Below are positions 11,386 to 28,598 of a DNA stretch of 28,598 nt, piece after piece (the stretch's first letter is position 1; each line of letters opens with the position of its first letter). The position numbers and the translations under genes are program-made. The notes beneath the pieces are model-generated. The model saw only the letters and a program-made list of their open reading frames with translations. It had not been told where the DNA came from and did not search any database. Source of the DNA: a virus; the IMG/VR virus record IMGVR_UViG_3300046369_000918, positions 1 to 28,598 of that record; one strand, written 5' to 3'.

Positions 11386-14300
11386 ATGGCTCAAACTAAA
11401 AATACTTTTATCAAGTCTAAAATGAATAGAGACTTAGACGAAAGACTTGTACCTAATGGTGAATATAGAGAGGCTTTAAATATACAGGTAAGTCAATCAG
11501 AAGACGCTGACGTTGGAACATTATCTACAGCTTTAGGAAATACTTTAATTACAGAGTTTGGACTAGAGGAAGACTGCAACGCTAAAATTATAGGAATGTA
11601 TGCAGATGAAAAAGATAAAAATATATTCTTTTTTATAACTAATTTCATTGACACTTCTTCTACAGGCTTAACCAACTACCCAACTTCGCAAGTTATTAAT
11701 CAGATTTGGGCTAGAAACATAAACTCCAATACTAACACTAAGCTTGTTGAAGGTCAGTTTTTAAATTTTTCTATAACGCATGAGATTTTAAATATAGATT
11801 TATTAGATGATTTGTTATTCTGGACAGACAATAGGAATCAGCCAAGAAAAATAAACATAGCTAAAGCAAATCCATCAGCATCGTTAAATCCTAATTATTA
11901 TACTAACGAAGATCAAATATGCGTTGCTAAGTATGCTCCTTGCGATGTTATAAGTTTAATGAAAGACTATATAGTAAGTTATTCAATAATTTCTGGAGGA
12001 GGCGGAACCGGCCCTAATCCAGCAAACTATGTAGTTAATAATATATATAGTACAGTTTCTACTCTTACAAATGGAGGTGAGGGTTTAACTATAAAGGTAT
12101 TGACAGTAACATCAGGTAATATAACTTCGTTTGAGATAGTGAACCAAGGAAGTGGATATATAGATCAAGAAAATGTAAATGTATCTCCTCGAACTGGATC
12201 GGCAAGAATCCAATTGTCTGTTGAAAATCAGAGTACTATGAAAAATAAGTGTACTGAGTTCCTTCCAGATACTCTTACGGATGTGGTTGCTACTGGGGTT
12301 GGCTATAGTATAACCTCAGGATCTGTTTTTCAAGGTAATTATGATTCATCTTTAGCTCCTTATGTAGGTTCATTAGTAAAAATAGAAAATGCCATAGGTT
12401 CAGATATAACGCCTAAGCTGGCTAGACTTACTAGTTTTACTAGCCAAGGGTCAAGCTTTTTTGCTATAATAACATGGCCTTTTCCAGCAGCGTCTTCTCC
12501 TCAAACTTTAAACGTTCCTGATGGTGGTAAGTTAATATACGGATTAAATCCAGATTATGATAATCAATGGCCTGGAGATTGTGAGTATTTAAAAGATAAG
12601 TTTGTAAGGTTTTCTTATAGGTTTAAGTTTGATGATAATGAATACTCTACTATAGCCCCTTTTACACAAGCTTGTTTTATACCTGTTAATAATGGTTATT
12701 TTTTAAAAGAAGAAATAAATACAGGAGTTATACAGTCTTTAGTTAGAACTGTAGCAGGAACTAATTATACCGTAGGCCAAACAAGCATTATAACTCAAAG
12801 CGGTAATCAAACTGCTCATGCTGAAGTTGTCAGTACTAGTGGAGATGTTCGTATAATAAACGGAGGATCTGACTATATTAATGGTAATTCTGTTTCTGTT
12901 TCTTTTACTAATGGATCAGGAGCAAGCTATACAGCTAATACTCTTGAAAAAGTATTTGATACTAATCAAGCTTTTAAGTCTACAGAAAATAAAAAATTTG
13001 AAAACTTAGTAAATAATATTGATCTTCAAATACCTTGTCCTAATTTTTTAAACTCTAATGGAAATACATGGGATAAAATACAAGAAAGTATGCATGTAGA
13101 TTCTATAGAGATAATTTATAAAGATGATGCTGAAGATGTTTTAAAAGTTTTAGACTCAATTAACGTTACCGAATTAGTTACAATTAATCAACCTTTTTTT
13201 AATTACCAATATCAATCAAGTTTACCTATAAAAACTTTAGAAGAGCGAGATTTATTAAGAGTTAGTGATAAAGTTCCTTTAAGAGCTTTGACTCAAGAAG
13301 TTTCTGGCAATAGAATTATATATGGTAATTATGTAGATGGTCACACAAGTAATGCTACGTTAGACTATCAAGTAGCTAGTTCTGCTAAATTTCCTACTAC
13401 TACTCCTTTTTTCTCTACATTAAAGAAAGAATACCAAAACCATACTTTAAAACAAAATAGAAATTATCAAGTAGGTGTAGTTCTTTCAGATCGATATGGT
13501 AGACAATCTGATGTAGTTTTATCAGAAATAGAAAGCACTGTTACTGGCCTTGGTAGTGATACAATTTATGGTTCGTCAACTACTTACCACCCTTATTACA
13601 GTAGTGATCCAGGGTTACTACAATCAGGTGGTTCTGGAACTGCAGGAACTACTTGGCCTGGTGATAGTTTAAAAATACAATTTAATTCTCTAGTTCCTGA
13701 AAACAATGGATTATTAGGTTATCCTGGTCTTTTTGTAGGTATAGAAGGGGCTAATGTTTCTAATTTTTTTACAGGAGGCCCTTATTTAGATAGTGGTTTA
13801 TATCCCTCGAACCCAGTTACCAATGCCGCAACAACTACTAATGGATCTGGCACGGGATTAACGGTGGATTATTGGACAGCAAATGGTCAAATGGGGCCTT
13901 ACTCGCCTGTCATAAATAACCCTGGCTTTGGGTATGCGAACGGTGATACCATAACTATATCAAGCAATATTTCCCCTACTCCAGGTAATTTTCAAGCAGC
14001 TACTTTTAGGATTCAAACAGGATTAGTTCCTAATTTAACAGGTTGGTATAGCTATAGAGTAGTTGTAAAACAACAAGAACAAGATTATTATAATGTTTAT
14101 TTACCTGGAATACTTAATGGAAATATAGTTGATAATATTTCTAACAATGCAACTTCAGCTACTTTAAGTTTATATGGAGATAATATTAATAAAATACCAA
14201 AAGATTTAACAGATGTAGGCCCAACACAGACTTCATTTAGAACTTCAGAAGAAGAATTAATCTTAAGAGTGCAAAACTTTTTAAACAATACTGAAACTGT

Positions 14301-16242
14301 AAGCAGGCAATTTTATCCAGAAACTGAAACAGAAGATGTAGTTAGCTTATCAGAATTAAGTGATTTAGGCTTTAATTTATCTAGAAATACACAAGCTATA
14401 GATGGATCTTATCCTAATGCTGTTTCTACTATTAATCTTACTACGTTTAATGAAAGCGTTTCTAATGGCGCTAGTGTTACAATACTAGATGGAAATGGGA
14501 ATACAGTTTATGGCACAGCAGCGGGACTTTATGCTCTTAGCTATTTTAAATCAACTAGCCCAGAAGCATCTGTAGTGTTAAATGAGAAAATCACATTACC
14601 GTCATCTCTAACACCTTACACTATAACGTTTGGTGCAAGTGGTATCGTATATAATAGTTTTAATAATCCTTTGGTAGGTTTTTTAAATACCTCTGAAAGT
14701 ATTGGTGTTTCAGAGGAAAAAGGATTTGTACCATCTTTAGCTGTTTTTGAAACGTCTCCTGTAGTTTCACAGTTGAATATATTTTATGAAACAAGTACTT
14801 CTGGAACTATATCAGATTTAAATGATTTAATAGTAGCTGGTAGTCCTGCCGGAACATTTATTGCTACAGTTTCTAATGTAGAAAGTAGCGACACACTGTT
14901 TAATGAGACAAAAACAGGCTCTTATACCGTAACTAATAGTTTTACTCCTGTAGACTTTAATGGTGATGCGATAGTGGATGCTGCTGCTAGTGGAGCTTTG
15001 GTTAGTGTTTTTGATGATAATGGAAGTTCTAGAATAAATGAATTTCAGTTAGAAAATAACAATGGAGTTTTTACTTTAAAAACTAATAGACCCGCTGGTA
15101 TTGGCTACTACGTAGGATCTAACAACAGACTCATAACTTTTAATTGTACTGTAAAAATAACAAGTAATGGCTCGAGTGTGTTTAAATCTTTTCAAATACA
15201 AGTAGGTAATTCTAAACCAACTTATGGTCCTTCAAGATATGCACCTAATCCTCCAGGCGCGATAAACGGCACTAATTACACAAGCTATTTAAATGGTTAT
15301 GGGCCAGGTCAAGTTTTACCGGCTCCTTCAGGATTTCCAACACCTAATTTACCTCCGTTAATAGCTAATCCAATTGATGGTCCACAGCTTTTTGGTCCTC
15401 TTGGTTTTTATGCTACTTTTAACAATGCTAATGATTATGACCCAACAACTCCTGGCGGTGGTTATGGAACAAAATCTCTAGCTCAATTTGTTGCCTTCAA
15501 CGGCAGTGGAGATAATTCAGCTCCATTTCCAAATGCCTCATTTTCACAACCTCCTTTACTTAATCCAAATTCTTTAAGAACAAGAGAAGTAAGTTGGTTT
15601 TGTACGTCGTGGAAAATTGGCTCAAATACTGTTGCTAAAAACTTTGATGAAAATGATATGGTAAAAGTGGTAGTAAATGGACAGACTGAAAGTGTTAGAT
15701 ATGGTGATATCAGTGGAACTCTACCAGATGTCCTCGTGTCGCAAGCGGAGAAAGAAGGTCCAAATGGAAATTCGTATCAAATATATATAGGCGAAGATTA
15801 TGCAGAAAAACAAGATAATAGATTTGGAGGTATAACTGATAGGATGGATTTTGCCGTATTCGCGGGAAATTCTAATTCAGATTTCCAATTTCTTCCAAGC
15901 CCGGGGTTAAAAATTGGAGCACAACCAGTAAACAATTTTAAATGTGGTATTGGGGTTAGGCCTTTAACTAGTGATGTCAGCACTTCATTAACATATGATC
16001 CAGATGGAGATCCTAGCGGCTTACAACAAGGTGCTGCTAATCTTTTAAATTTTTTTGGCAATAATAATAATTATTTAGGGTCAAACACTACCGCTGGTAA
16101 TATAAATCCATTAGCGGTAAGCTCTATACCTATTGCTTCTTTTATTGAACGAATAGAGCATGTAATTACCATACAAGCAAGCGATGGATCAAATTTAATA
16201 GGTGAACCAAGCGTTATTAAAGTAATTCAATTAGGAAATTAG
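11386..16242 (+). CDS. Large tail body (stabilisation/muzzle-type) protein with Ig/cadherin-like region
   Basis: 1618 residues. The N-terminus (NTFIKSKMNRDLDERLVPNG, then EYREALNIQVSQSED) is a signature I associate with the phage stabilisation or muzzle proteins of crAss-like and marine podoviruses. A second conserved block lies near residue 886 (GWYSYRVVVKQQEQDYYNVY). The C-terminal third (about 1155-1610) has cadherin- or Ig-like strands (GTFIATVSNVESSDTLFN, then INEFQLENNNGVFTLKT) and Pro/Gly-rich linkers. At least three GxGYxxGD modules are inserted at about residues 229-279, 446-525 and 809-875. The protein probably closes the short tail and carries surface-exposed domains contacting the host. 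No lyase or hydrolase motif was recognised. The following gene resembles the second half of the same family. Confidence 0.72.
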   Translation: MAQTKNTFIKSKMNRDLDERLVPNGEYREALNIQVSQSEDADVGTLSTALGNTLITEFGLEEDCNAKIIGMYADEKDKNIFFFITNFIDTSSTGLTNYPTSQVINQIWARNINSNTNTKLVEGQFLNFSITHEILNIDLLDDLLFWTDNRNQPRKINIAKANPSASLNPNYYTNEDQICVAKYAPCDVISLMKDYIVSYSIISGGGGTGPNPANYVVNNIYSTVSTLTNGGEGLTIKVLTVTSGNITSFEIVNQGSGYIDQENVNVSPRTGSARIQLSVENQSTMKNKCTEFLPDTLTDVVATGVGYSITSGSVFQGNYDSSLAPYVGSLVKIENAIGSDITPKLARLTSFTSQGSSFFAIITWPFPAASSPQTLNVPDGGKLIYGLNPDYDNQWPGDCEYLKDKFVRFSYRFKFDDNEYSTIAPFTQACFIPVNNGYFLKEEINTGVIQSLVRTVAGTNYTVGQTSIITQSGNQTAHAEVVSTSGDVRIINGGSDYINGNSVSVSFTNGSGASYTANTLEKVFDTNQAFKSTENKKFENLVNNIDLQIPCPNFLNSNGNTWDKIQESMHVDSIEIIYKDDAEDVLKVLDSINVTELVTINQPFFNYQYQSSLPIKTLEERDLLRVSDKVPLRALTQEVSGNRIIYGNYVDGHTSNATLDYQVASSAKFPTTTPFFSTLKKEYQNHTLKQNRNYQVGVVLSDRYGRQSDVVLSEIESTVTGLGSDTIYGSSTTYHPYYSSDPGLLQSGGSGTAGTTWPGDSLKIQFNSLVPENNGLLGYPGLFVGIEGANVSNFFTGGPYLDSGLYPSNPVTNAATTTNGSGTGLTVDYWTANGQMGPYSPVINNPGFGYANGDTITISSNISPTPGNFQAATFRIQTGLVPNLTGWYSYRVVVKQQEQDYYNVYLPGILNGNIVDNISNNATSATLSLYGDNINKIPKDLTDVGPTQTSFRTSEEELILRVQNFLNNTETVSRQFYPETETEDVVSLSELSDLGFNLSRNTQAIDGSYPNAVSTINLTTFNESVSNGASVTILDGNGNTVYGTAAGLYALSYFKSTSPEASVVLNEKITLPSSLTPYTITFGASGIVYNSFNNPLVGFLNTSESIGVSEEKGFVPSLAVFETSPVVSQLNIFYETSTSGTISDLNDLIVAGSPAGTFIATVSNVESSDTLFNETKTGSYTVTNSFTPVDFNGDAIVDAAASGALVSVFDDNGSSRINEFQLENNNGVFTLKTNRPAGIGYYVGSNNRLITFNCTVKITSNGSSVFKSFQIQVGNSKPTYGPSRYAPNPPGAINGTNYTSYLNGYGPGQVLPAPSGFPTPNLPPLIANPIDGPQLFGPLGFYATFNNANDYDPTTPGGGYGTKSLAQFVAFNGSGDNSAPFPNASFSQPPLLNPNSLRTREVSWFCTSWKIGSNTVAKNFDENDMVKVVVNGQTESVRYGDISGTLPDVLVSQAEKEGPNGNSYQIYIGEDYAEKQDNRFGGITDRMDFAVFAGNSNSDFQFLPSPGLKIGAQPVNNFKCGIGVRPLTSDVSTSLTYDPDGDPSGLQQGAANLLNFFGNNNNYLGSNTTAGNINPLAVSSIPIASFIERIEHVITIQASDGSNLIGEPSVIKVIQLGN
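12070..12222 (+). repeat. GxGYxxGD module, first copy in the tail body protein
   Basis: Codes for strands followed by VNQGSGYIDQENVNVSP, a diverged core in which GD is replaced. It interrupts two parts of the tail protein that look like one conserved block (VAKYAPC upstream, MKNKCTEFLP downstream). Confidence 0.5.
12721..12960 (+). repeat. GxGYxxGD module, second (double) copy in the tail body protein
   Basis: Codes for two half-related units in tandem, with cores GTNYTVGQTSI and GSDYINGNSVSV. The flanks (GYFLKEEIN upstream, NKKFENLVNNIDLQIPCP downstream) look like continuous conserved sequence, so this reads as an insertion. Confidence 0.5.
13810..14010 (+). repeat. GxGYxxGD module, third copy in the tail body protein, G+C-rich
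   Basis: Codes for GSGTGLTVDYW through GFGYANGDTITIS. By hand count, 82 of 180 bases in 13801-13980 are G or C, against 47 of 180 in 14041-14220. The composition break supports a recently inserted module. It directly precedes the conserved block GWYSYRVVVKQ. Confidence 0.6.
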
Positions 16243-16275
16243 TAGTAATAAGTTTTTAAAATAAGTGATAATAAT

Positions 16276-18282
16276 ATGGGAGCAGTTATAGAAGTAAAGT
16301 ATTTTAACTCATTTTGGATGAAGCAAATTCAAGGTCTAGTAACAAACCCTGCTGAAAATAATCCAAAATGGCCTAGTTTAGAGTGGAATCCTTTTGGGTA
16401 TCCTGAGTTTCCTTTAAATGCTGTTAATGATGCTGATAACTGGTATATAGAAGAAGCTAGAATAAAAGGTGGGTATAACAATACTATAGTATCTCAAGGT
16501 GTTAGAGCTTATTTAAATGAAAAAAACCCACAACAAGATATAAGAGAAGCATCTTTAATATATTCTGGAGTATATAATAATAGAACTGAAACAAATAGAA
16601 CAAATGTTTTTAGTATAGGCGAGGTTATAGAAGCTGACTTAGACCCTATGGATGGTAGTATTCAAAAACTTTTTGCTGAAGATACTAATTTAACTATATT
16701 TCAAGAAAACAAAGTAACAAAAGCCTTGGTAAACAAGAATGCTATATACTCTGGTACTCAAGGTTCTAAAGAAACTCCAGAAATACCTGTAATAGGTCAA
16801 ATTGTCCCTTATTTAGGTGTTTTTGGAATAGGTAAAAATCCTGAGTCTTTTGCTCAGTATGGTTTTAGAAAATATTTTGTAGATCCAATTAGAGGATCTG
16901 TTATGAGGTTATCAAGAGATGGTTTAACTGAAATATCTAATTATGGTATGAAAGACTATTTTAGAGACGCTTTAAACGGTACTATTTCTGAAAGACAAGA
17001 AGCTTCAATTCCTTGGACAAAGGTATCACCTACAATACCATCTTTAGTAGAAAACGTAACTTGGACAGGTGCTAATACTGGGGGAATTTATGCTTCTTTA
17101 GAAGGTGGTCAAACTTCAGGTTCTGTATATACTTTTATAACTACAGGAACTACAGCTGTGCTAAACTTAGCTTACAATCCACAAGGTGGCGGTGGTTCAG
17201 GTTCTGGCGGTAAAATACAAGTAACAATAAATAATCCTTCCGTTCCACAACTTGGAGGAGCTCAAGCGGTTGTTACCGATGGAGGCTCCGGGTATGCTGT
17301 AGGAGATCAATTAATAGTAGTAGGAGACGGTATTCATTTTAGTGGTAATATAGAAATTACTTTAAATACAAGTCAAATAAGTTCTACTGTAAATAGTTTT
17401 TACATTTCTGACGAAAACAAATGTGTAGTTTTTGCTGGAAGTAAAGTATTTAACGCTGATTCTAACGGCTTAAAAATAAATACTGGAGCAACGGTTTCTC
17501 AAGTTGTTAAAATTAACGACCCTACTCTAGGTGATATATTAGAAGTTTTTACAAATATAACAGTCACGCCAACAGATACAGGATTTTTTAGTTATGATTT
17601 TAAAAGTAAAATAATCGGAGGATGGGATAATTACAATAGATATTATATTGTTTCTATTCAGTCTAATCCTTCTTATTTAGTAACAACTAGAAATTTCGAT
17701 ACTTTATCTTATGATGAAAGCATTCGCGGTTGGGTTTCTTTTTACAGCTACAAACCTGGTCACATGGTTAGTTTAAAAGGTTTATTTTTCTCAACACAGT
17801 CAATTGGTTTTTACCAACACAACCTTGGTAGATATACCCAATATTACGGAGTTGCTGTATCACCTTATGTTAGAATGCTTATAAATGCAAATCCCTCTGT
17901 AAAGAAAACTTTTCAAACTATAAACTATGAAGGAGATAATGGTTGGCAAGTTTCAGGCATACGTTCTGACGCTACTAAGTTTAGCACTGCTGGAACTGCT
18001 AGGGTAGACATTGGAAATAGAATACTTAGTTATGAAGAGGGTATTTATACCGGTTACGACGGTTTTCCTCAAAGAGCTGGTTTTGATAGAAAAGAAAATC
18101 TATATACAGCAAATTTAAATAACTCATCTTTATTCAATGCTGAAGAAGTTATTAGTGGAAACGTTTTAACAGGATTAAAAGGTTATTTGCTTGAAGCAAC
18201 ATTTACAACAGACTTAACAACAGATCTATATGGACCTAAAGAAATATGGTCAGTAGGAACTACTTATGTTCAATCATCTTAA
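16276..18282 (+). CDS. Second tail body (stabilisation/muzzle-type) protein
   Basis: 668 residues. The sequence from about residue 55 (NWYIEEARIKGGYNNTIVSQ) through about 165 (LTIFQENKVTKALVNKNAIY), and again near 448 (GGWDNYNRYYIVSIQSNP) and 544 (TFQTINYEGDNGWQVSGI), matches my memory of a widespread marine-phage tail protein. In many relatives I recall it as the C-terminal part of the same polypeptide as the protein encoded just upstream, so here the function appears split over two genes 33 nt apart. A GxGYxxGD module (GSGYAVGDQLIVV) is inserted at about 295-365. It probably assembles with the 1618-aa protein at the tail tip. No enzymatic motif was found. Confidence 0.7.
   Translation: MGAVIEVKYFNSFWMKQIQGLVTNPAENNPKWPSLEWNPFGYPEFPLNAVNDADNWYIEEARIKGGYNNTIVSQGVRAYLNEKNPQQDIREASLIYSGVYNNRTETNRTNVFSIGEVIEADLDPMDGSIQKLFAEDTNLTIFQENKVTKALVNKNAIYSGTQGSKETPEIPVIGQIVPYLGVFGIGKNPESFAQYGFRKYFVDPIRGSVMRLSRDGLTEISNYGMKDYFRDALNGTISERQEASIPWTKVSPTIPSLVENVTWTGANTGGIYASLEGGQTSGSVYTFITTGTTAVLNLAYNPQGGGGSGSGGKIQVTINNPSVPQLGGAQAVVTDGGSGYAVGDQLIVVGDGIHFSGNIEITLNTSQISSTVNSFYISDENKCVVFAGSKVFNADSNGLKINTGATVSQVVKINDPTLGDILEVFTNITVTPTDTGFFSYDFKSKIIGGWDNYNRYYIVSIQSNPSYLVTTRNFDTLSYDESIRGWVSFYSYKPGHMVSLKGLFFSTQSIGFYQHNLGRYTQYYGVAVSPYVRMLINANPSVKKTFQTINYEGDNGWQVSGIRSDATKFSTAGTARVDIGNRILSYEEGIYTGYDGFPQRAGFDRKENLYTANLNNSSLFNAEEVISGNVLTGLKGYLLEATFTTDLTTDLYGPKEIWSVGTTYVQSS
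17158..17366 (+). repeat. GxGYxxGD module, copy in the second tail body protein
   Basis: Codes for a Gly/Ser lead (GGGGSGSGGK), strands and the core GSGYAVGDQLIVVGDG. The Gly/Ser lead closely resembles that of the copy in the 206-aa protein (GGGSGSGAK), which links the two copies. Confidence 0.6.
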
Positions 18283-18291
18283 AAATAAAAT

Positions 18292-18996
18292 ATGATATTA
18301 GATATATTACAAACAATGATAATAGAGCCTAATATGGCTCTTATTCCAGCATTAATGGTTGGTGGTATAGTATTACAAGGTGTTATGGGTGCTGTAGCAC
18401 TTGGTAAAGCTAATTCCATGAATGGAACTATTAGCGACTTAGATCAAGACATTAAAGACTTAGTCAACAGTAGACAGGATATACCTGATTTATCAGAATC
18501 CTTAGAAGACATGTCGGGCTCACTAACTAATCCATATGCTAATTTAAGTGTAGCAACTAAAGCCGCTGAAATACAAATGCAACAAACTGATTTAGCTTTA
18601 GCAAATACTTTAGATACTATTGCTCAAGCTGGTTTAGGCGCTGGTGGAGCCACTGCTTTAGCAAGGGAAGCTTCAAGATCTAAAAATCAAATATCAGCAA
18701 GTATAGAGCAACAAGAAGCTCAAAATGAAAAACTAAAAGCTCAAGGTAATATGCAATTACAACAACAGATATTAGCTGAAAAAGTTAGAATGCAGCAAGG
18801 AGATATGGCTGCACAACAATTCATGTATTCGGCACAAGAAACTAGAACTAATGCTGATTTAGATAGAGCTGCTGGATTATACGACAACGCACTAGCTCAA
18901 CAAGCTCAATACAATAGCGACGCTTTTGGAGCCTTTGGTAGTATGGGTGGTAATTTAGTTCAATTTGGCGCTTTAGCGGATCCGAAACAAAAATAA
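18292..18996 (+). CDS. Internal virion protein, probable DNA-ejection protein with membrane segment
   Basis: 234 residues. Residues about 15-38 are hydrophobic and Gly-rich (MALIPALMVGGIVLQGVMGA) and could insert in a membrane. The remainder is Ala/Gln/Glu-rich and strongly helical (MQQTDLALANTLDTIAQ; QQEAQNEKLKAQGNMQLQQQ). This layout is typical of small ejected virion proteins such as T7 gp14 or P22 gp7, which help build a conduit across the envelope; the assignment is by architecture and position before two other internal-type proteins. The start at 18292 follows AAAATAAAAT; an internal ATG at 18334, just before the hydrophobic part, is an alternative. Confidence 0.6.
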   Translation: MILDILQTMIIEPNMALIPALMVGGIVLQGVMGAVALGKANSMNGTISDLDQDIKDLVNSRQDIPDLSESLEDMSGSLTNPYANLSVATKAAEIQMQQTDLALANTLDTIAQAGLGAGGATALAREASRSKNQISASIEQQEAQNEKLKAQGNMQLQQQILAEKVRMQQGDMAAQQFMYSAQETRTNADLDRAAGLYDNALAQQAQYNSDAFGAFGSMGGNLVQFGALADPKQK

Positions 18997-18999
18997 AAT

Positions 19000-21147
19000 A
19001 TGGGAACTTATTCAAAACCAAGTTTAGTACTAGACACCAGCTTTGGAGCTTTTAATAAAGGTCTTCAAGCAGGTGTTGATAAAGCCGCTGCTACATTACA
19101 GGCCGAGAAAAAACAAGAAAAAGCTTTATTAGAGAAGCAATTAAAAGCTCAAGAGTTACAACAAAAAGCAGATATAAAGTGGAGCATAAAGCAGTCTACG
19201 GCTTTAAATAAAAATTTACAAACTATTAGTGATTTTAATATAAACAATGTATCAAATACTAATACTAGTTACATAGGGAGAAACGGAAATCCTATTGTAG
19301 GAAATGATATTGTAAAAAAATATAATGATTTTGCTAAAACTTTACCACAGGGTTTAACTGAAGATGAAATAAAAGATAAAGTAGAAGAAGCTGGTTTAGA
19401 TTTTAATACATATAAAGAATCTACTGACGAAGTTGGTCCAGATCTTTCAGATCAGCTTATTGACTATGTTAAAGGTCAATATGGTTTAATACCAAACTCG
19501 CCTCAAAATATAGAAGACACTAAACTTTACGATGAAACTCAAAAAAATATTGGAACATCAATGAGTGGTGGTTTAGAGCTTTTAGGTTTACTTAAAGTAA
19601 CTGGAGATAACCTAGTTGCTGATGGTTTTAATGGAGCTTTTAATCCTGATGGAACTGTTGTTAAGCCAAAGAAAGGTAGAAATAATACAATGTTATTATT
19701 TCCAGATGATCCTAATTATACTTTATTAACAAATACTGCTAGAGATTTAGCTTTAGGTACTAATAAAGGAAGATATAGTTATGGTGTCATAGGTAATGAA
19801 GCAGCTGTTATTGTTACTAGTCCAAACGGTGATAAAAACTACATAACTAAAGATATGCTTCAATCAGCAGCAAGTAAAACCGGTAACGGCTTTGTTTCTA
19901 CTACTAGTTCAGAGAATTTTGAAGCTTATGTGAAAGGTGTAAAAGGTTTTTTTACTAATGTTAACTTTAAAGGAGTAACTAATACTTTTACAAAAGAAAT
20001 ACCTGGAGAGACTTCTGCTGATAAAGATATAAGAATTACAACAAGAGTTAAAGATATTGTTCAAAGCCAAGTTGAACTTAGAAGAGCTTGTTATAATCAC
20101 GTTGCTAACGCAGGTTTAGGTCAAAAAGGAAAAGGCCAAATAAATAACATAAGTGGACAAGCTAATTGGCAAATGCTAGGTGGACCTATAGAGGCTAAAG
20201 CTGGTGATAACAAACTTGATATTAATAATAATATTATTGGACAATATACACAAGCAGAAATAGACGAAAGCATACAATGGAGAGGAACGCCAGCTCAAGT
20301 AGAAAAAGCAGCTGGTAAGTTATATGATTTAATGGCTGATAAATACTTGCCTAAAACAAACACAATATCCACAAATAGAAAAGAAATTAACAATGCAACT
20401 GGTAGAGTTACTGAGCAACGTGCAAATGCCTTACTTGAAGATGGAATACAGTTTCCAGCTAGTGGATCAACTGTTGTTAATAATATATTTGGTGCGCCAA
20501 TAAATGCTAGTCCTACAGGAGACAGAAATATTGGTTTAAGTCAGGTTCTTGAAAAAGAATCTAAATTAAATGAAAACAACTTTAAAGGAAAAGTAGATAT
20601 TTTAAACATCGTAGGCGGCGGTGGTATTTATATTACTGGTAAAGATTTAAAGACTAGAGGAGGAGCAGAGATTATTGATCAAAATGGTAACCCTGTTTCT
20701 AGTACTATACCTGATTCTAGTATCTATGTTAGTAGCGGAGGCCAGTGGGTTAGAAAACAAAATCTAGAAGGCCAAGACGCTTTTATTAGAACTTTAGTAT
20801 CAAGAGGAGCTTTTGGAACAAGAACAGAGGCTAATAGAGCTATGAAGATATATAAAGATAATATAAACGCTAACACAACAACAACAGCAACGACAACGAC
20901 AACGACAGGTACAGGAGCAGGCGTAACATTACCACCAAGTGATAGAAGGTTAAAGAAAAATATAGTTAAAATTAATGAATCTGAGTCTGGATTAAATATA
21001 TACGAATTTGAATATATAAACAAAGAAGGTACATACCAAGGCGTTATGTCTGACGAGATACCTAAAGAAGCTGTTTTAGTTGGTGATAATGGATACGACA
21101 CAGTTGACTATTCTAAATTAGATGTTGATTTTAAAAGAATAAAATAA
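19000..21147 (+). CDS. Internal virion protein with C-terminal peptidase S74-type chaperone
   Basis: 715 residues, 3 nt after the previous gene. The N-terminus (about 20-75) is an Ala/Lys/Gln-rich coiled coil; the middle (80-620) matches nothing I recognise. After a Thr-repeat linker (about 626-638), the last 69 residues start SDRRLKKNIVKI at S647 and continue with LNIYEFEYI, QGVMSDEIP and VDYSKLDVDFKRI. That is the pattern of the intramolecular chaperone auto-processing domain (peptidase S74), which trimerises, helps fold the upstream protein and cleaves itself at Ser-Asp, here between S647 and D648. S74 domains are usually on tail fibres and spikes, so this protein might be a fibre or needle; the coiled coil and location between an ejection-type and a giant protein favour an internal protein. 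Confidence 0.68.
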   Translation: MGTYSKPSLVLDTSFGAFNKGLQAGVDKAAATLQAEKKQEKALLEKQLKAQELQQKADIKWSIKQSTALNKNLQTISDFNINNVSNTNTSYIGRNGNPIVGNDIVKKYNDFAKTLPQGLTEDEIKDKVEEAGLDFNTYKESTDEVGPDLSDQLIDYVKGQYGLIPNSPQNIEDTKLYDETQKNIGTSMSGGLELLGLLKVTGDNLVADGFNGAFNPDGTVVKPKKGRNNTMLLFPDDPNYTLLTNTARDLALGTNKGRYSYGVIGNEAAVIVTSPNGDKNYITKDMLQSAASKTGNGFVSTTSSENFEAYVKGVKGFFTNVNFKGVTNTFTKEIPGETSADKDIRITTRVKDIVQSQVELRRACYNHVANAGLGQKGKGQINNISGQANWQMLGGPIEAKAGDNKLDINNNIIGQYTQAEIDESIQWRGTPAQVEKAAGKLYDLMADKYLPKTNTISTNRKEINNATGRVTEQRANALLEDGIQFPASGSTVVNNIFGAPINASPTGDRNIGLSQVLEKESKLNENNFKGKVDILNIVGGGGIYITGKDLKTRGGAEIIDQNGNPVSSTIPDSSIYVSSGGQWVRKQNLEGQDAFIRTLVSRGAFGTRTEANRAMKIYKDNINANTTTTATTTTTTGTGAGVTLPPSDRRLKKNIVKINESESGLNIYEFEYINKEGTYQGVMSDEIPKEAVLVGDNGYDTVDYSKLDVDFKRIK

Positions 21148-21148
21148 T

Positions 21149-24100
21149 ATGGCTGAAGAAGTATTTGAAGAAAATATACAAACTCAAGAAGTTGTTGAAG
21201 AAGTTTCTGTCAAACCAGAAGATCAAGACAATGTTGAAGTAGAGATAGAAAAAGATACTGTTGAAAAAGAACCTGTAAAGTATAAATATGTTAACGATCA
21301 AGGAGTTGCGGGTTATTTTACTATGGACGGACCTAATGGAGTGAAAGCAGCTGCAGAGAAAGCTGGTCAAACTCCAGATGAATATTTAAGTGAGCATAAA
21401 AATATTATTAAAATATTACCTATAGAAGATGTTGATGTTAAAATATCTTTTGAAGACTTTAAATTAAAAGAAGAAGAAAAAATAGTACCTGAGCTAAATT
21501 CTTTATACCCTAATTTTGTTTTTGATCAAGTTGAACCAGGTAGTGATAGTTTTACTGTTATAAATAAGAAAACTGGTGTAAATGAAACTATAAATCTAGG
21601 AACTATATATAATACTAAAAACAGAAGAAGTAGTGGAGCTGTAAGCATACCTGTAGGTCAAGAAGGTTTAATAGAAAAAGACGCACTAAGTGAAAGTAAA
21701 AAAGCATATAATAGCTTTATTAATTTTATAAATAACAATCCTGAATCTAGCAAAGAGGCTAACTTAATATATAAAGCAACAGGTAAAATTGGAGAAGATG
21801 GTCTTAGGTCAATAAAAATTGGTACATATTATGATCAACCAAAAATAAGGCCAGTTGGACAAAAACCACAAGGCGATTTTGAAGGTGCAGCTGATGCTAT
21901 AAAACCTAGTGAAGGACAAGCGGTTAGTTTAATAACAGAGTTAGATATATTACAAAAAGATGCCTTTAGAAACCCTTGGAAATATGGTATTGGTAATGAA
22001 AATACACCAGGCAAAGAAAAGTTTACTTTAACCGCAGAAAACCATGATCAAATTAAAGCAAAATTAATTGATGAGTTAAGAACTAATACAGAAATAGGTA
22101 TATATGAAAGTTCTTTTAATAGCTTGTATAATAACTTAATGGCAGAAAATAAAGTTTTTATAGAGCAAGAGTATGACGAAAATAGATCCATAAGTCTTTC
22201 AAGTATAGAAGTTGATGAAGATTTTAAAAGTAAAACAATAAGTAATTTTAACTCTAAATTAACACAGCAAGAATTAAAAAACCAAGAGCTAAGTATTAAG
22301 CAAGGCGATATATCAAAAGATATAAATATATTAGAGGAAAAAATTAAGCAAGTTGATAAGAAAGAGTTAACAATTGAATACGATGAAGAAGCTAAAGAGA
22401 ATGAATTAAAAGCTTTAGATTTACAGTTACTTAATAAGCAAGGTAAGTATCAAGTATTACAGCTTCAAAGAGAGCAGAATGCAACAACAATAACTAATAT
22501 ACCTGGTAGATTTGGAGAAGACTTTGGTTCAATAAAAGTTAAAACTACAGCTGGAGAATTAACTAAAAACTTTTTTAACGATAGAGGTTTTTCTGAAGCA
22601 AGTATAGATAAGTTAATCAACATAGCTGATGACGCACAATCTGGAATTGAAGATTCAATAAAATCAGAACAAGAGTCTAATCCTTTACTTACTCAAAGAG
22701 AAGCTATTGGTAATATATTTAATAAAGAAATTATAAACTTACAAACGTTACGTAAAGAAGGAAATGAATCTAAAATAAAATTAAAAATTCCTTTAGACTT
22801 TAAAGGTGGTTTTACTACTTTAAAAAATAATCTTAGAACTGCTGGTATTAATGTTGATAAAAATGGTGAAGTAGAAATATCTTTACTAAAGTTAAGACAA
22901 TTAGGAATAGATCAAAGAGATTTTGAAGGATTTATAGACGAAGCTTTAGGCATGGCTAGCAAGCAAGATGTTGAAGCTATTAAAATATATAACGAAGAAT
23001 ATGATGAAGTAGAAACTCTAGCCAATGCTTATTGGAGCATGTATGCTGGGAATGTAGATATATCAGCTATAGAGAAAGATGGTTTTTTAAAGACTCTTGC
23101 AACCTCTACGTTTGTAAGTACTTTAGAAAAGTTTGGCTATAATGACAAAGAAGCTAAAAATATTGTATATTCAAAAGGAATGTCACCCCAAGACAGAATA
23201 GCTGCTATAAACTCAGCTATAGTAACAAGTGCTTATGAAGTAAAGTCATTGTCGGGTGGTGAAATAAAATTAACACCAGAACAAAAAGAAGCTGTAAAAG
23301 TATCTGTAAGTAATCAAATAGCTCAAGGTATTGGTAGTTTCATTCCAGAAATGCCTTTACTAATGGGTGGTGGACAAGCTTTAAATGCTTTAGGTTGGAA
23401 AAAGTATTATAATGGCTTGAAAGGTATTAAGAAGTTTGTAATGGGTGCTGTTGTTGAAGATATACAAATGCAAATAGCTCTAGATGCTGAGTACGGAACT
23501 GGTGCTGTTTTCTTTAGTGTTGGATCTTTTGGTAGAACAACAATAAAATGGGGTAAAAACTATAGAGCTCTTCAACCTGTTTTTCAAAAATTAATAGCAT
23601 CTGGGCCATTAGGAGCTGTGTCTTCAGAAGTTGCGAGTGCAGTTAGTGCTGTTTCTGCAAGTATAAGAGGAGAGAAAAATTTTGAAACTTCAATAGAGGA
23701 ACTTTATGGAGAGTTAGGTCCTCTTGAAGAAAGAATTATGGTTCAAACTGGTATATTTTCTGGATTTGGAGCTATGGGTCTTAAAGGAAACGACGTTATT
23801 TCTACAGGTAAAAAGATAAAATTAAGAGATAAGCTTAATAAAAGAATAGAAGATGTTAGAAGAGGTCCAACTAGATTAGTAAATGAAAAAGAGCTTCCTG
23901 GATTACTAAGAGATTTTAAGGATCTTAGCCCTAAAGAAAAAAAACAAGTAGAAAACTTAACATCTGGTGTAAATGAGTTACAAAACTTAATACAATACGA
24001 AATAGCTTATGTAGAACTAACTCCACCAAGTAGAGAAAAGTTTGAAAGCACAAATCCTGAAACAGTAAAAGAATATAAAAAAGAAGTTGAAGCTTTTAAA

Positions 24101-27100
24101 AACAATCTTACAAAAAGATATGTAGATCCTTGGGTTAAGGGTATACAAGCATTTAGTCCAGATTTTAAAGGCGTAAACGTTGTGGTTGGTAGAGGGGCTA
24201 GATTTAGAAAAAATAATTTTAGAAAAAGTAAATCTACTGCTGAGTTTGATCCTAATACAAACACTATAACTATAGATATGGATCTTTATACGCCAGGAAA
24301 AGAAATACATGAGTTAACTCATTTACTTCAAAAAGAGTACTATAAGAAAAATCCAGCAGCGCTTGAAAATTTAGCAAAAGAAGGTATGTCTCAATTTTAT
24401 GATTATCAGTTTGGAGAGTTTAGTGGTAAAGAATTAGAACAAAGAATTATAGATAAATATAAAATAAATAAAAACACTTTAGAAGGTAAAAAATTATTAG
24501 CAGAAGAATATTTAGCTTTTATGGGTGAATACTTAAGTAGTCCAGAAGCTTATTACACAAACCCTGCTTTAGCTTCTAGTCTTTTAAATGAAATAAAGTT
24601 AGAAATTAAAGATATATTAATTCAAACTGGAGTAAAAAGTCCATTACCTAAGACAGCTAAAGATGTGGTTGAAAATATAGGTATATTAGCTAGAAAAGGA
24701 AATAGAGGACAAGGAGGAGCTGAAAGTCTTGTATCTGAGCTTTTGGGTTTTTCTGATAAAAGAGAAGATATTCCAGATGTTAATATAGATAACTTAAGTA
24801 ATGCAGAAGCTAATAAAAAAGCTGATAGAGCTAATATTGAAAAAGAAATTAGATCTTCTTTAGATTTAGAAGGTACAGTAGTTAAGAAAACTACAAAAGA
24901 AATAGTTGAAGACAATAGGAAATTAAGAGCTGAAATACTTAAAAATACAGATGGTAGACCAAATAGAAAACAAAGAGATCAAATAGTTGACAATAACAAA
25001 AATTTAATATATAGTATATTAAATAAATACGAAACAATTACTGGATTTAAATTGTCAAAAGATATAAAAGAAGAAGCTGCTTTTGAATTACAATTAAAAC
25101 TTTATGAATATGCTGAAAGATATGACGCTAACAAAAACGATGTTGGCGCTTATTTAAATATGGGATTTACAAAACAGGTTGTAAATACATTAAAGAAAGT
25201 AGGATCATTTGATAGAGAGATTAGTGAGTCAGATTTAGGAGACGGAGAATCAGGCGGCTTAGAAAATCTTGTTGACCAAACTTTTAGCACTAGCGGAGGT
25301 GTTAGTTCTATAAGGGAAGAATTTATTGATCCATCTACAGGAAAACTTGATGCTACTACAGTATTGAAAGAGCCAGAGGTAACTGTTAGGCTTTTAGATA
25401 ATAGAATACAAAATTCAAATTTAATTATAGATACTTATAAACAAACTCCTGATCTTTCTAATGTAAGTAAAGACTTTGGTGTTAAAGATGGTAAAGTTAA
25501 TAATGAAGATGGAACTTTCAAAGGTAAGACATCAACTAGATTATCAACCCCAGAAGTATTGAATTCTCAAAAATATATACTAGAAAATGCTGAGATGCTT
25601 TATGAGTTATTGCCTGATGGTAAAACTACTAAAACAGCTAAAGAGTCTTTAAAAGAAACTTCTACTGGTGTTCAACCAGTATTGCTAGATGCTTTTTATG
25701 AAATAGGAGATAGAGTTAGTACTGCTGCTGGATTAAAAGGTCAAGGAAAACTACCATTTAATAGAAGTAAATTTTTAGAGTATTTTGGAATAAAAGAAGA
25801 TGGTGGAGTTTTTGAAACAATAAAAGAAAATGGTAAGATTGATCAAAGAATAAAAGCTTTAATACATCAAAGTGGAAAAGCTATAACTAATGCTGAAATA
25901 AGAAAAATAAAAGACTTAACAGCTAATCAAATAGAAGATTTAAAATCTGGTAAATCTGAAGCTTTGGCATCTGTAGATTTAAGTGGCGAGAAAGCTTTTA
26001 ATAAGTTAGTTGAAAAATTAAACAATGGCGAAACAATAACTGTCGAAGACAAGAAGTTAATGATTGCAGAGTATAAGCCTAACGATTTCATGACTCAGTT
26101 AATTTACAATTCTACTGAAGATCAATTAAGAGTTATAGACGATGCAATATATCAAACTAGAAATGATGCACGACAACTTGTAATTAATGAGCGTATAGCT
26201 AAAGAAAAAGGTATGACTCCAGAGCAAATAGTTGAAATGGAAAAAGACTATATTTCTAGGTGGAGTAAAAAACTTCCAATTATAGGAAAAGAATTTGGTA
26301 TAAAAGATTTAAAAATTCCGGTTATGAGCAACATAACTAGTTTAAATAATGGCCCAAGAACTATTAAAAGTTTTAGTAAAATTCTTAAAAAGTTTCCTGA
26401 ATTATTAGAAAATGATGCTTTTTCAAAATATGTAAGAAACACTTTTGGAGAAGGATCATTAAAAACTTTTGGACTTAAAGAATATAAAAAGAAAAATGGT
26501 GAAACATTATCTACTTTTGGCAAAGAAGAGTTTAAAGAAATTTTTAAAGATGCTAAGGGTGAGGGTGAAACTTTGGATTTTATGAAAGAAGTTTACCAAC
26601 CAACATACGGTGCGGGTAAATACGGTTTAATTGGTAAGTGGGAAAAAGAAATAGATATTGCTAAGAAGAAATTTCCAAATTGGGAGACAACTGGGAAAAA
26701 TGAATACGAAGCATATTTAGTTGGTAAAGGAAGAGACTTTTTAAGTAATCCCAATATGAAAGTTGATGGCAAGTTTCCACCAGATGCTTACGAAAGAACA
26801 ATGGCTGCTAATAGAAAAGCTATAGAATATACATATGAAAAATTAGCTGAGGTTTATAGAGAAGCACCTACTAAAGAAACTTTAGAAGATATAATATCTT
26901 TTCTTCAAATACAAACTAATCAAGGAACTGGTATATTAAAAGGTCTTGCTCCAGTAGAATTTTTATCAACAGTAGGTGAAGCAGTAGTGCCAGGCGGTAA
27001 GAAGTTTTACAATGAACATAATAAAGATCTTTTCATATATAATAATGAATTTATTAGTTTATTATCTAAATCTGGAAAATTACCTCTTGTAAAAGATCCT

Positions 27101-28598
27101 TTAACAGGAGAATTAGTTACAAATCCAAAATTGCTAGAAGGAATAAAAGAAATTTCTAGTTCAATATCTCAATCTTTAACTAGCACATTTCAAGCTTCTA
27201 CAAAAGATGCGAAAGAAAATCAAGGTGCTGGAGCTAGTTTATTTCCAGGTTATGGAAATAAAAAGTATGAAACTTTATTCACTGGTTATCTAACTAAAAA
27301 ACAAGCTCCTTTTACTTTAGATTTAACAGCTTCAAAACCTGAGCCTGGAAAAGTTGTAACAGTAGCTGATTCATTTATAAAAGAATTAGGTAAGAAAAAT
27401 GTTTTATCCGCTTTAAATAATTATGCAAAAAATGGACAATTAAATGCTGCTGGTTACGAATTACTAAGAGTTGTTGAAAATAGAGAAACAGTTAAAGAGG
27501 TTAAAGTAAATAATAAAGATGTTGTTGAAAAGGCTGGTATGGGTAATGAAAAAGATACTACAGCCAATGAATCAACAAAAGAGATAAACGAAACAACAGC
27601 TCCATTAAAAAGAAGAGATGAAACTCAAAAAGTAGCTTTAATTCAAAAAGAAGTTAAATCAACAGATATTGTAGATATAGAAAAAGATCTTCCTAAAGAA
27701 TATAAGATGGAAGAAGAAATATACGGAGTAGAAGTTAAAGGTAAAAAAGGTTATGGCTTTGACTTTGACGATACATTATCTAAAACGGATAGTAAAGTAT
27801 ATGCAACATCACCTAAATTTAAAGACATCGAAATAACTTTTGAGACAAATGGTATGCCAACAAAAGAAACTATTAGGTTAGTAAAAGAAGGTAAAATAAT
27901 AGAGCTAAATGCTGGGCAATGGGCTGAGAGAGGCGAGAAGATGGCAGAGGATGGTTTTAAAATAAAGTTTGATAATTTTGATGCTGTTGTTGATCCTAAG
28001 CCAGGTCCTTTGTTAGAGATGGCTAGAAGAGTTTTAAAGAAAAGAGGCAAAGAAGATGCTTATATTATAACAGCTAGAGATAGAAAAGCTCAAAAAGCTA
28101 TTTTTGAATACTTAAAAGAACAAGGCGTTGAGTTTAAGTTTAATAATATATATGCTTTAGGTAATTCAAGCGGTAAAGCTAAAGCTGATTTATTAGTTAA
28201 GTTAATTGGAGAGAAAAACTACAACGATATATTTTTTGGTGACGACGCAACAAACGTAGTGGCTGAGGTTAAGAAAGTTTTAGACCTTGTAGATATTAAG
28301 TCTACTGTTCAGCAAGTAAGATCTTCTATGGATCTATCTGAAGAGTTTAATAAAAATTTAGAAGAGTCTTCTGGTATTGGACGTGAAAAAGTTTATTCAC
28401 CTGTTAAAGCTAAATTAGTAGGTGCAACTAAAAAAAGACAAAGATTTTTCATACCTTCGTCTGCTGAGGACTTTACTGGATTATTATATACTACTCTAGG
28501 TAAAGGTAAAGAAGGTGAAGCTCATATGGCTTTTTATCAAAAAAACTTATTAGATACTTACAATAGAGGTGTAGAGAACTTAGCAAAAGATAGAGTTA
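21149..28598 (+). CDS. Giant polyvalent virion-type protein (at least 2483 aa, 3' end outside window)
   Basis: One uninterrupted frame to the last base, starting 1 nt after the preceding stop (AAAATAAT-ATG). Residues 1-45 are very acidic. About 360-447 is coiled coil. About 725-880 is Gly/Ala-rich with hydrophobic and amphipathic helices (FIPEMPLLMGGGQALNAL) and may interact with membrane. About 1008-1130 is a zincin-like peptidase (HELTH 1054-1058; candidate third ligand in EEYLAF 1119-1124). About 1265-1375 resembles sigma-70 region 2. About 2200-2390 is a HAD phosphatase with all four motifs. The visible end (SSAEDFTGLLYTTLGKGKEG) is a segment I associate with phage polyvalent proteins. 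Its position after internal virion genes suggests that it is packaged and injected to act on the host at once. No RNA polymerase motif is visible in this part. Confidence 0.82.
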   Translation, partial: MAEEVFEENIQTQEVVEEVSVKPEDQDNVEVEIEKDTVEKEPVKYKYVNDQGVAGYFTMDGPNGVKAAAEKAGQTPDEYLSEHKNIIKILPIEDVDVKISFEDFKLKEEEKIVPELNSLYPNFVFDQVEPGSDSFTVINKKTGVNETINLGTIYNTKNRRSSGAVSIPVGQEGLIEKDALSESKKAYNSFINFINNNPESSKEANLIYKATGKIGEDGLRSIKIGTYYDQPKIRPVGQKPQGDFEGAADAIKPSEGQAVSLITELDILQKDAFRNPWKYGIGNENTPGKEKFTLTAENHDQIKAKLIDELRTNTEIGIYESSFNSLYNNLMAENKVFIEQEYDENRSISLSSIEVDEDFKSKTISNFNSKLTQQELKNQELSIKQGDISKDINILEEKIKQVDKKELTIEYDEEAKENELKALDLQLLNKQGKYQVLQLQREQNATTITNIPGRFGEDFGSIKVKTTAGELTKNFFNDRGFSEASIDKLINIADDAQSGIEDSIKSEQESNPLLTQREAIGNIFNKEIINLQTLRKEGNESKIKLKIPLDFKGGFTTLKNNLRTAGINVDKNGEVEISLLKLRQLGIDQRDFEGFIDEALGMASKQDVEAIKIYNEEYDEVETLANAYWSMYAGNVDISAIEKDGFLKTLATSTFVSTLEKFGYNDKEAKNIVYSKGMSPQDRIAAINSAIVTSAYEVKSLSGGEIKLTPEQKEAVKVSVSNQIAQGIGSFIPEMPLLMGGGQALNALGWKKYYNGLKGIKKFVMGAVVEDIQMQIALDAEYGTGAVFFSVGSFGRTTIKWGKNYRALQPVFQKLIASGPLGAVSSEVASAVSAVSASIRGEKNFETSIEELYGELGPLEERIMVQTGIFSGFGAMGLKGNDVISTGKKIKLRDKLNKRIEDVRRGPTRLVNEKELPGLLRDFKDLSPKEKKQVENLTSGVNELQNLIQYEIAYVELTPPSREKFESTNPETVKEYKKEVEAFKNNLTKRYVDPWVKGIQAFSPDFKGVNVVVGRGARFRKNNFRKSKSTAEFDPNTNTITIDMDLYTPGKEIHELTHLLQKEYYKKNPAALENLAKEGMSQFYDYQFGEFSGKELEQRIIDKYKINKNTLEGKKLLAEEYLAFMGEYLSSPEAYYTNPALASSLLNEIKLEIKDILIQTGVKSPLPKTAKDVVENIGILARKGNRGQGGAESLVSELLGFSDKREDIPDVNIDNLSNAEANKKADRANIEKEIRSSLDLEGTVVKKTTKEIVEDNRKLRAEILKNTDGRPNRKQRDQIVDNNKNLIYSILNKYETITGFKLSKDIKEEAAFELQLKLYEYAERYDANKNDVGAYLNMGFTKQVVNTLKKVGSFDREISESDLGDGESGGLENLVDQTFSTSGGVSSIREEFIDPSTGKLDATTVLKEPEVTVRLLDNRIQNSNLIIDTYKQTPDLSNVSKDFGVKDGKVNNEDGTFKGKTSTRLSTPEVLNSQKYILENAEMLYELLPDGKTTKTAKESLKETSTGVQPVLLDAFYEIGDRVSTAAGLKGQGKLPFNRSKFLEYFGIKEDGGVFETIKENGKIDQRIKALIHQSGKAITNAEIRKIKDLTANQIEDLKSGKSEALASVDLSGEKAFNKLVEKLNNGETITVEDKKLMIAEYKPNDFMTQLIYNSTEDQLRVIDDAIYQTRNDARQLVINERIAKEKGMTPEQIVEMEKDYISRWSKKLPIIGKEFGIKDLKIPVMSNITSLNNGPRTIKSFSKILKKFPELLENDAFSKYVRNTFGEGSLKTFGLKEYKKKNGETLSTFGKEEFKEIFKDAKGEGETLDFMKEVYQPTYGAGKYGLIGKWEKEIDIAKKKFPNWETTGKNEYEAYLVGKGRDFLSNPNMKVDGKFPPDAYERTMAANRKAIEYTYEKLAEVYREAPTKETLEDIISFLQIQTNQGTGILKGLAPVEFLSTVGEAVVPGGKKFYNEHNKDLFIYNNEFISLLSKSGKLPLVKDPLTGELVTNPKLLEGIKEISSSISQSLTSTFQASTKDAKENQGAGASLFPGYGNKKYETLFTGYLTKKQAPFTLDLTASKPEPGKVVTVADSFIKELGKKNVLSALNNYAKNGQLNAAGYELLRVVENRETVKEVKVNNKDVVEKAGMGNEKDTTANESTKEINETTAPLKRRDETQKVALIQKEVKSTDIVDIEKDLPKEYKMEEEIYGVEVKGKKGYGFDFDDTLSKTDSKVYATSPKFKDIEITFETNGMPTKETIRLVKEGKIIELNAGQWAERGEKMAEDGFKIKFDNFDAVVDPKPGPLLEMARRVLKKRGKEDAYIITARDRKAQKAIFEYLKEQGVEFKFNNIYALGNSSGKAKADLLVKLIGEKNYNDIFFGDDATNVVAEVKKVLDLVDIKSTVQQVRSSMDLSEEFNKNLEESSGIGREKVYSPVKAKLVGATKKRQRFFIPSSAEDFTGLLYTTLGKGKEGEAHMAFYQKNLLDTYNRGVENLAKDRV
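24170..24540 (+). other. Zincin-like metallopeptidase segment in the giant protein
   Basis: Residues about 1008-1130. A beta hairpin-like lead (STAEFDPNTNTITIDMDLYT) runs into GKEIHELTHLLQ, with HExxH at 1054-1058. A Glu pair at 1119-1120 in EEYLAFMGEYL offers the third zinc ligand, as in gluzincin-type domains. Predicted zinc-dependent peptidase; substrate unknown, possibly the giant protein itself or host proteins. Confidence 0.6.
24940..25275 (+). other. Segment resembling sigma-70 region 2 in the giant protein
   Basis: Residues about 1265-1375. NNKNLIYSILNKYE at 1282-1295, then YEYAERYDANKNDVGAYLNM and a basic helix FTKQVVNTLKK, then DREISESDLGDGESGGLENL. The order and spacing follow region 2 of FliA-type sigma factors (ALEKFDxxKG-FSTYA-IRGAMLDELRK, then an acidic SLD-GDD stretch). 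No region 4 helix-turn-helix was recognised after it. Similarity was judged by eye only. Confidence 0.5.
27750..28310 (+). other. HAD-superfamily phosphatase domain in the giant protein
   Basis: Residues about 2200-2390. Motif I is FDFDDTL (D2205 nucleophile, D2207 general acid/base), motif II is IITAR (T2308), motif III is K2343 or K2345 in SGKAKADLL, and motif IV is FFGDDATN (D2365/D2366). All catalytic positions are present and in order, so the domain is probably active. A cap-like insertion lies between motifs I and II. Substrate unknown. Confidence 0.8.

Follow-up and report, generated by a model that had tools for sequence, protein, structure and literature searches.

S74/ICA domains are known from endosialidases, the phage neck appendage gp12, the T5 L-shaped fibre and MyRF. 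Their catalytic Ser-Lys dyads have been placed at S911/K916 in endoNF and S587/K592 in MyRF, and the S-to-A mutants of both proteins yielded folded structures; MyRF trimerizes via a C-terminal coiled-coil helix, and mutations there block cleavage, according to the account in PMC8326128. For MYRF, a nucleophile S578 followed by D579 has been reported, with an expected N-terminal product ending at P577 (PMC3742443). As to the proteins that phages eject, phicrAss001 encodes its muzzle gp44, gp45 (cargo 1), gp46 (cargo 2) and gp47 in this order (PMC10172136), and T7 has gp14 (196 aa) and gp15 (747 aa) (PMC8954989). Little is known about the processing of ejection proteins or about what separates them before use. 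In the open PMC literature, we found no work joining S74 with an ejection protein or an internal virion protein and none on S74 in a Sulfitobacter phage; S74 combined with crAss gave only unrelated work, and the term S74 is absent from the main text of PMC10172136.

Gene order and the C-terminal module of p715

The window, that is, the whole stretch of DNA analyzed here, is a virus record of 28,598 bases in which the genes in question lie on one strand (table 1). Their order, muzzle, p234, p715 and giant gene, is the same as in phicrAss001, and p715 occupies the position between muzzle and giant that the cargo proteins gp45 and gp46 have there. ORF positions confirm that the gene lies between an ejection-type gene and a giant ORF, as the preliminary description had it, and the gap from p715 to the giant gene is one base. 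In order and size, p234 and p715 are also like gp14 and gp15 of T7. The muzzle profile matched the C-terminal part of gp44 with an hhalign probability of 93.6. In contrast, the probabilities against gp45 and gp46 were at most 1.0 for p234 and at most 0.3 for p715, and the giant protein had no detectable profile match to gp47. Since p715 has no detectable kinship with gp45 or gp46, its internal location is argued from gene position and by analogy, and the ejection role of p234 and p715 is likewise proposed from position. The relation of the window to Crassvirales would rest mainly on the muzzle C-terminal domain. A portal-like gene stayed below the cut-off (PF16510, 21.2 bits vs. 26.1), and residues 2197-2375 of the giant protein contain a polynucleotide-kinase stretch (PHROG 415, 2.8e-6).

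Table 1. Positions of the features in the window and, in the last row, chains with two modules in other loci
Feature	Position	Strand	Basis
Muzzle-like tail protein, 668 aa	16276..18282	+	Pfam PF25729 crAss_MUZ_C, 37.1 bits (cut-off 27)
p234, small ejection-type protein, hydrophobic N-terminal stretch	18292..18996	+	Directly after muzzle
p715, putative internal ejection (cargo) protein, 715 aa, C-terminal module	19000..21147	+	ORF and orthologues
Thr/Gly-rich linker, residues 625-646, ends VTLPP before module	20872..20937	+	Sequence
Compact S74/ICA-type module, residues 647-715, 69 aa	20938..21144	+	Pfam, PHROG, profile, AlphaFold2, BFVD
S647 codon, predicted nucleophile; predicted scissile bond P646-S647 just 5'	20938..20940	+	Aligned with endoNF S911, MyRF S587
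K652 codon, predicted dyad lysine	20953..20955	+	Spacing matches endoNF K916, MyRF K592
Giant protein, at least 2483 aa, continues past window end	21149..28597	+	
Double-module chains	L152 (4173-7997), L160, L169, L153, L163, L162, L167, L156, L154, L155, L204, L217, L218		

PHROG 14478 (1474 positions) matches two neighboring proteins in the window (11386-18282): its positions 2-180 align with a 1618-aa protein, as the best of four stretches, and its positions 923-1100 with the 668-aa muzzle, so a single long protein family may be split in two genes here. In some other loci, the muzzle match lies within a single ORF of at least 1409 aa. The interval between muzzle and p234 is a variable slot, with an inserted ORF in 32 of 64 muzzle loci. 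The 12 inserted ORFs listed are of differing kinds (e.g., L013 11739-12206, L022 11747-12565 and L056 12039-12449), and a GNAT neighbor as constant partner was dropped for this reason.

The C-terminal module of p715 reads SDRRLKKN...VDYSKLDVDFKRIK. The preliminary description had taken the last 69 residues, from SDRRLKKN, as a compact S74 pattern; residues 647-715 are almost certainly a module of this type, and the end that it quoted was read correctly, except that the protein runs one residue further, to K. As for a match to the S74 profile, Pfam PF13884 stayed below its cut-off of 22, both for the whole of p715 (17.1 bits) and for its isolated last 69 residues (21.6 bits, E 2.6e-4), while relatives passed it (e.g., L117 with 22.1, L100 with 27.7 and L150 with 41.6 bits). 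PHROG 6121 matched residues 603-707 of p715 with an E value of 6.9e-16. A profile of 13 modules, run with hmmsearch against PDB sequences, reached the ICA/S74 chains of known structure 6f45 (4.6e-5), 3gud (7.9e-5), 8jov (0.0032) and 7dc3, which is MyRF (0.0049). What the module has in common with the described domains is this profile match, the SDxRxK loop, the Ser-Lys dyad and the central Gly-containing strand.

The AlphaFold2 model of the module, built on an alignment of 37 sequences, had a pLDDT of 91.7. Foldseek against BFVD gave 10 matches at E ≤0.001, of which the top one was unnamed (TMq 0.97); among the best 12 rows, 7 were named "Intramolecular chaperone auto-processing domain containing protein" (TMq 0.76-0.87). 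No solved ICA chain was among the PDB matches of the module model (Foldseek, VIA), and this blank speaks neither for nor against the ICA fold. The full-length p715 model gave no meaningful Foldseek match, and PDB sequence searches with full p715 and with p234 found nothing.

Predicted catalytic residues and the missing coiled coil

The dyad is present in p715 as S647 and K652. Its conservation was examined in a set of 119 modules from the 216 loci listed, made non-redundant at <90% identity (by a simple measure); 86 were compact and C-terminal, 23 were internal, 2 had a longer tail and 8 ran off the contig end. S1, D2 and K6 were invariant in all 119, and R4 was found in 115. The residue before the Ser was of 14 types, with F in 43 of the 119. 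Counting every module domain, S1, D2 and K6 were kept in 168 of 168 distinct modules; in the 84 of these that lack all three N-terminal seed words, they were the sole fully invariant columns (R4 in 79/84). Considering that every locus was found via the module and confirmed by a dyad-bearing query, a mild bias to intact modules remains in these counts. Because the S-to-A mutants of endoNF and MyRF fold, the invariance of the Ser is not accounted for by folding alone. Cleavage had been predicted between S647 and D648, which is one residue off: by analogy with MYRF, where the expected N-terminal product ends just before the nucleophile, the predicted bond is P646-S647.

The module, with its 69 residues, is little more than half as long as the 3gud chain (129 residues), of which the module profile matched residues 1-70 only, and there is no room for the C-terminal coiled coil of ICA domains. 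In p715, 11 residues follow VDY. In the 74 of the 86 compact modules in which a V[DNS]Y motif was located (12 were without it), the median was also 11 residues, with a range of 3-18. The module model contained no helix of four or more residues, and the C-terminal triple coiled-coil helix was not found. Judged by sequence, two modules only, those of L133 and L139, end in a longer tail that looks helical, as in classical domains. The module further differs from S74/ICA domains in what stands upstream, a low-complexity linker that is Thr/Gly-rich by sequence and for which the low-confidence full-length model speaks neither for nor against a triple beta-helix stalk, and in being carried by ejection-type proteins or lying inside long chains. 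As the compact modules are too short for a coiled coil, the trimerizing chaperone of the preliminary description is doubtful and not supported as it was written; its self-removal is plausible, given the invariant Ser-Lys dyad.

Carrier families, internal modules and named phages

A motif scan of 75 muzzle-selected loci, many of them incomplete, found the module in three (L006, L007 and L056); five further regex matches were not S74. The carrier was p715 in L006, L007 and the window, and p234 in L056. A module-based scan gave 59 loci; two of them, L088 and L089, are the p715 contigs again, and eight (L090-L094 and L096-L098) have carriers of the p234 family, making nine contigs with L056; L093/L094 and L097/L098 are pairs with equal module and carrier length. 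Direct BLAST to p234 recovered L090, L092, L096 and L056, and the other five were reached by iterated profile only. The p234 profile match stops before the module in all eight, and in L056 it ends at 191 and the module starts at 206. In L091 (4453-6219), two p234-family genes stand in tandem, with the module on the second only.

With two further scans, the sample of viral-contig loci comprised at least 216, in which four contigs of the 59-locus scan recur under new ids. Among the 216 listed, 91 carriers belonged to a DNA-ejection group around L113 and L152 (PHROG 4287) and 14 were T7 gp14-like, both by iterated profiles; with ten crAss-like carriers, about half were assigned, and about 100 fit no family. 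PHROG 4287, a DNA ejection protein, covered residues 13-353 of 358 in L113, and the body of L117 matched the T7 gp14 family PF24072 (39.6 bits, cut-off 27). The module is carried by at least four families without detectable relation, namely, p715, p234, the T7 gp14 family and the PHROG "DNA ejection" family. No common ancestry was detected in seven profile pairs among p234, p715, gp14-like and PHROG-4287-like bodies (probability ≤2.7), a set that excludes p715 and the gp14-like carriers vs. the internal-carrier group; the template alignments were compared at the default column settings, possibly with some loss of sensitivity. The module is also found on some tail proteins. In L099 (1-2646), it is compact and C-terminal, and the N-part matches PHROG 13211, baseplate hub/tail lysozyme. 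From compact-module genes to the next ORF of >100 aa, the median gap was -1 base, and 119 of 139 gaps were within -20 to +30.

An internal module, lying more than 160 residues from the C-terminus of an ORF with a stop, was found in 50 of the 216 loci listed. For 49 of these 50 carriers, the N-part was matched by that of compact carriers, and all 5 that were scanned against PHROGs matched PHROG 4287 (DNA ejection) across the N-part and the module. Of 11 scanned against Pfam, 4 passed the cut-off for a domain that degrades cell walls, placed downstream of the module and belonging to one of three families (SLT in L150 and L152, Phage_lysozyme2 in L204 and Hydrolase_2 in L199), and no downstream domain was recognized in the other 7. 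Thirteen carriers contained two modules, each starting with SDxRxK, and two of these end at a contig edge (table 1). In L152 (SLT) and L204 (Phage_lysozyme2), the cell-wall-degrading domain lies 3' of both modules. Gene fission, judged by comparing the C-part of an internal carrier with a separate gene beside a compact-module gene (L269/L270), was dropped, since the match is of about 120 residues and near a sub-threshold transglycosylase-like hit and may be a shared enzyme domain only.

Searches of phage records with tblastn gave overlapping sets of 10 records for the window module, 18 for the L113 module and 18 for the L117 module. One of the 10 (MT835830) is without annotation; in 8 of the other 9, a C-terminal module ends a gene that follows the head-tail genes and opens a run of two to four. 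Most genes in these eight runs are hypothetical, and ejection is our own reading except in H6/1 and RHph_Y1_10, where the annotation itself speaks of ejection or injection. P22-type head or tail annotations occur in H6/1, PAE2 and two Vibrio phages. MW202675 has its module inside the chain (277-341 of 1185). Pseudoalteromonas phage H6/1 gp17 and Pseudomonas phage PAE2_13 (podophage-type, pfam13884) are like p715 in having a compact C-terminal module and an ejection position, with carriers of 303-358 aa whose gene overlaps the next, but they belong to another carrier family, and in the window the module is on the second, larger protein. In some phage records, the carrier is named "putative ejection protein," "internal virion protein D," "DNA injection protein" or "putative DNA transfer protein," and this like arrangement supports the earlier placement of an S74-type module on a protein in an internal or ejection position. 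In the Octadecabacter and Sinorhizobium records, the carrier is named tailspike, and in Roseobacter phage CRP-3, the module ends a 619-aa hypothetical gene in a different context.

Possible roles of the module and history of the p715 locus

The preliminary description was partly supported overall, its observation itself being confirmed; it had left a choice between an internal protein with a trimerizing, self-removing chaperone and a fibre or needle. That the p715 gene encodes a fibre or needle is highly improbable. S74 is best known from fibres, and fibre PHROGs match some carriers (in L100 and L108, on the module itself), but neither Pfam nor PHROGs gave a fibre family on residues 1-602 of p715, where the only other Pfam match was a sub-threshold Sputnik capsid (405-473); the low-confidence full-length model has a long N-terminal helix, and orthologues without the module stand at the same site between p234 and the giant gene. 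Instead, p715 is probably packed in the virion of this marine phage and pushed out at infection, and we consider an internal, ejected carrier likely. Such a carrier could still use its module as a classical ICA chaperone, with trimerization through the module, folding and release as in tailspikes. The S74 homology favors this, as does the compact module on the baseplate hub/tail lysozyme family, because the T4 protein of this type is a trimer. However, it is unlikely, given the short stretch after VDY without a C-terminal helix and the low-complexity linker before the module; moreover, the literature describes ejection proteins in complexes with 4, 6, 8 or 12 copies rather than as trimers (PMC8954989; PMC10172136). 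As both elements of the known trigger are apparently missing, that trigger cannot apply unchanged.

It is also possible, though we would put it somewhat on the doubtful side, that the module stays on as a folded terminal docking domain for the portal, a partner or the next ejection protein, with its Ser, Asp and Lys kept for structure or binding. The missing coiled coil, the low-complexity linker and the confident monomer fold predicted by AlphaFold2 are all consistent with docking, the several cargo types that bear the module all need packaging, and two modules in one chain resemble repeated domains. Against it, the sole invariant columns in the modules without seed words are exactly the known dyad and its Asp, and known ICA domains fold even with the Ser changed to Ala (PMC8326128). 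The reading that we prefer over these others, though at even odds, is that the module is a compact core derived from ICA domains, cleaving itself before S647 and tied to the assembly or packaging of the ejection protein; whether the p715 module does cut itself is, in our estimate, likewise an even question.

In this self-cleavage proposal, the module would keep two parts of the ICA domain, the beta core and the loop that bears the catalytic Ser and Lys, without room for the C-terminal coiled coil, and fold as a small autonomous unit joined by the flexible Thr/Gly-rich linker to a carrier that is packed in the virion and ejected. Once the carrier was assembled or packaged, the S647/K652 dyad would cut P646-S647, and the mature ejection protein would then end in the VTLP linker, near the point where the L037 orthologue, which lacks the module, stops. 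In chains with an internal module, the cut would split the ejection protein from what follows it, which in several cases is an enzyme that degrades cell walls. MYRF is a precedent for an internal ICA domain cutting a chain in two (PMC3742443), but it is a eukaryotic transcription factor with a full ICA domain and coiled coil.

The recurrence of the module on unrelated ejection proteins suggests a putative processing step in building the injection machinery. More speculatively, a stripped-down, trimer-independent ICA autoprotease might serve phage ejection machinery at large as a processing joint, placed terminally on gp14-like, gp7-position and crAss-like proteins. Equally tentative is its extension to internal modules, in up to two copies, where polyproteins of a DNA-ejection protein and a cell-wall-degrading enzyme might be packaged or assembled as one chain and then split themselves into ejectosome parts. 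If true, an invariant self-cleavage site would exist on unrelated ejection-type proteins, cultured phages included, testable by one serine mutation and mass spectrometry, and the range of the ICA domain, so far fibres and MYRF, would come to include the channel for DNA delivery, there without the trimerizing helix.

The history of the p715 locus was traced in its closest relatives. Between L006 and L007, nucleotide identity was 99.5% in the module and 99.3% in codons 1-387 of the giant gene, but 58.5% in the p715 body and 72.8% in p234. Since L006 and L007 share the module and the giant start and not the body, a recombination joint appears to lie near the module, with ejection bodies being exchanged. 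Between the window and L007, amino acid identity was 95.7% in the module and 45.7% in the body; selection on the module as the cause of the former value was dropped, because the pattern in L006 and L007 fits a recombination joint. The module-less p715 orthologue of L037 ends in NNVTLPTGTGTTP within the aligned linker, and the giant protein of L037 is 73% identical to that of the window. In a Tabrizicola aquatica contig (L308 4749-5216), a 155-aa ORF with a beginning like a signal for secretion has a compact module at its end, which may point to a cellular use.
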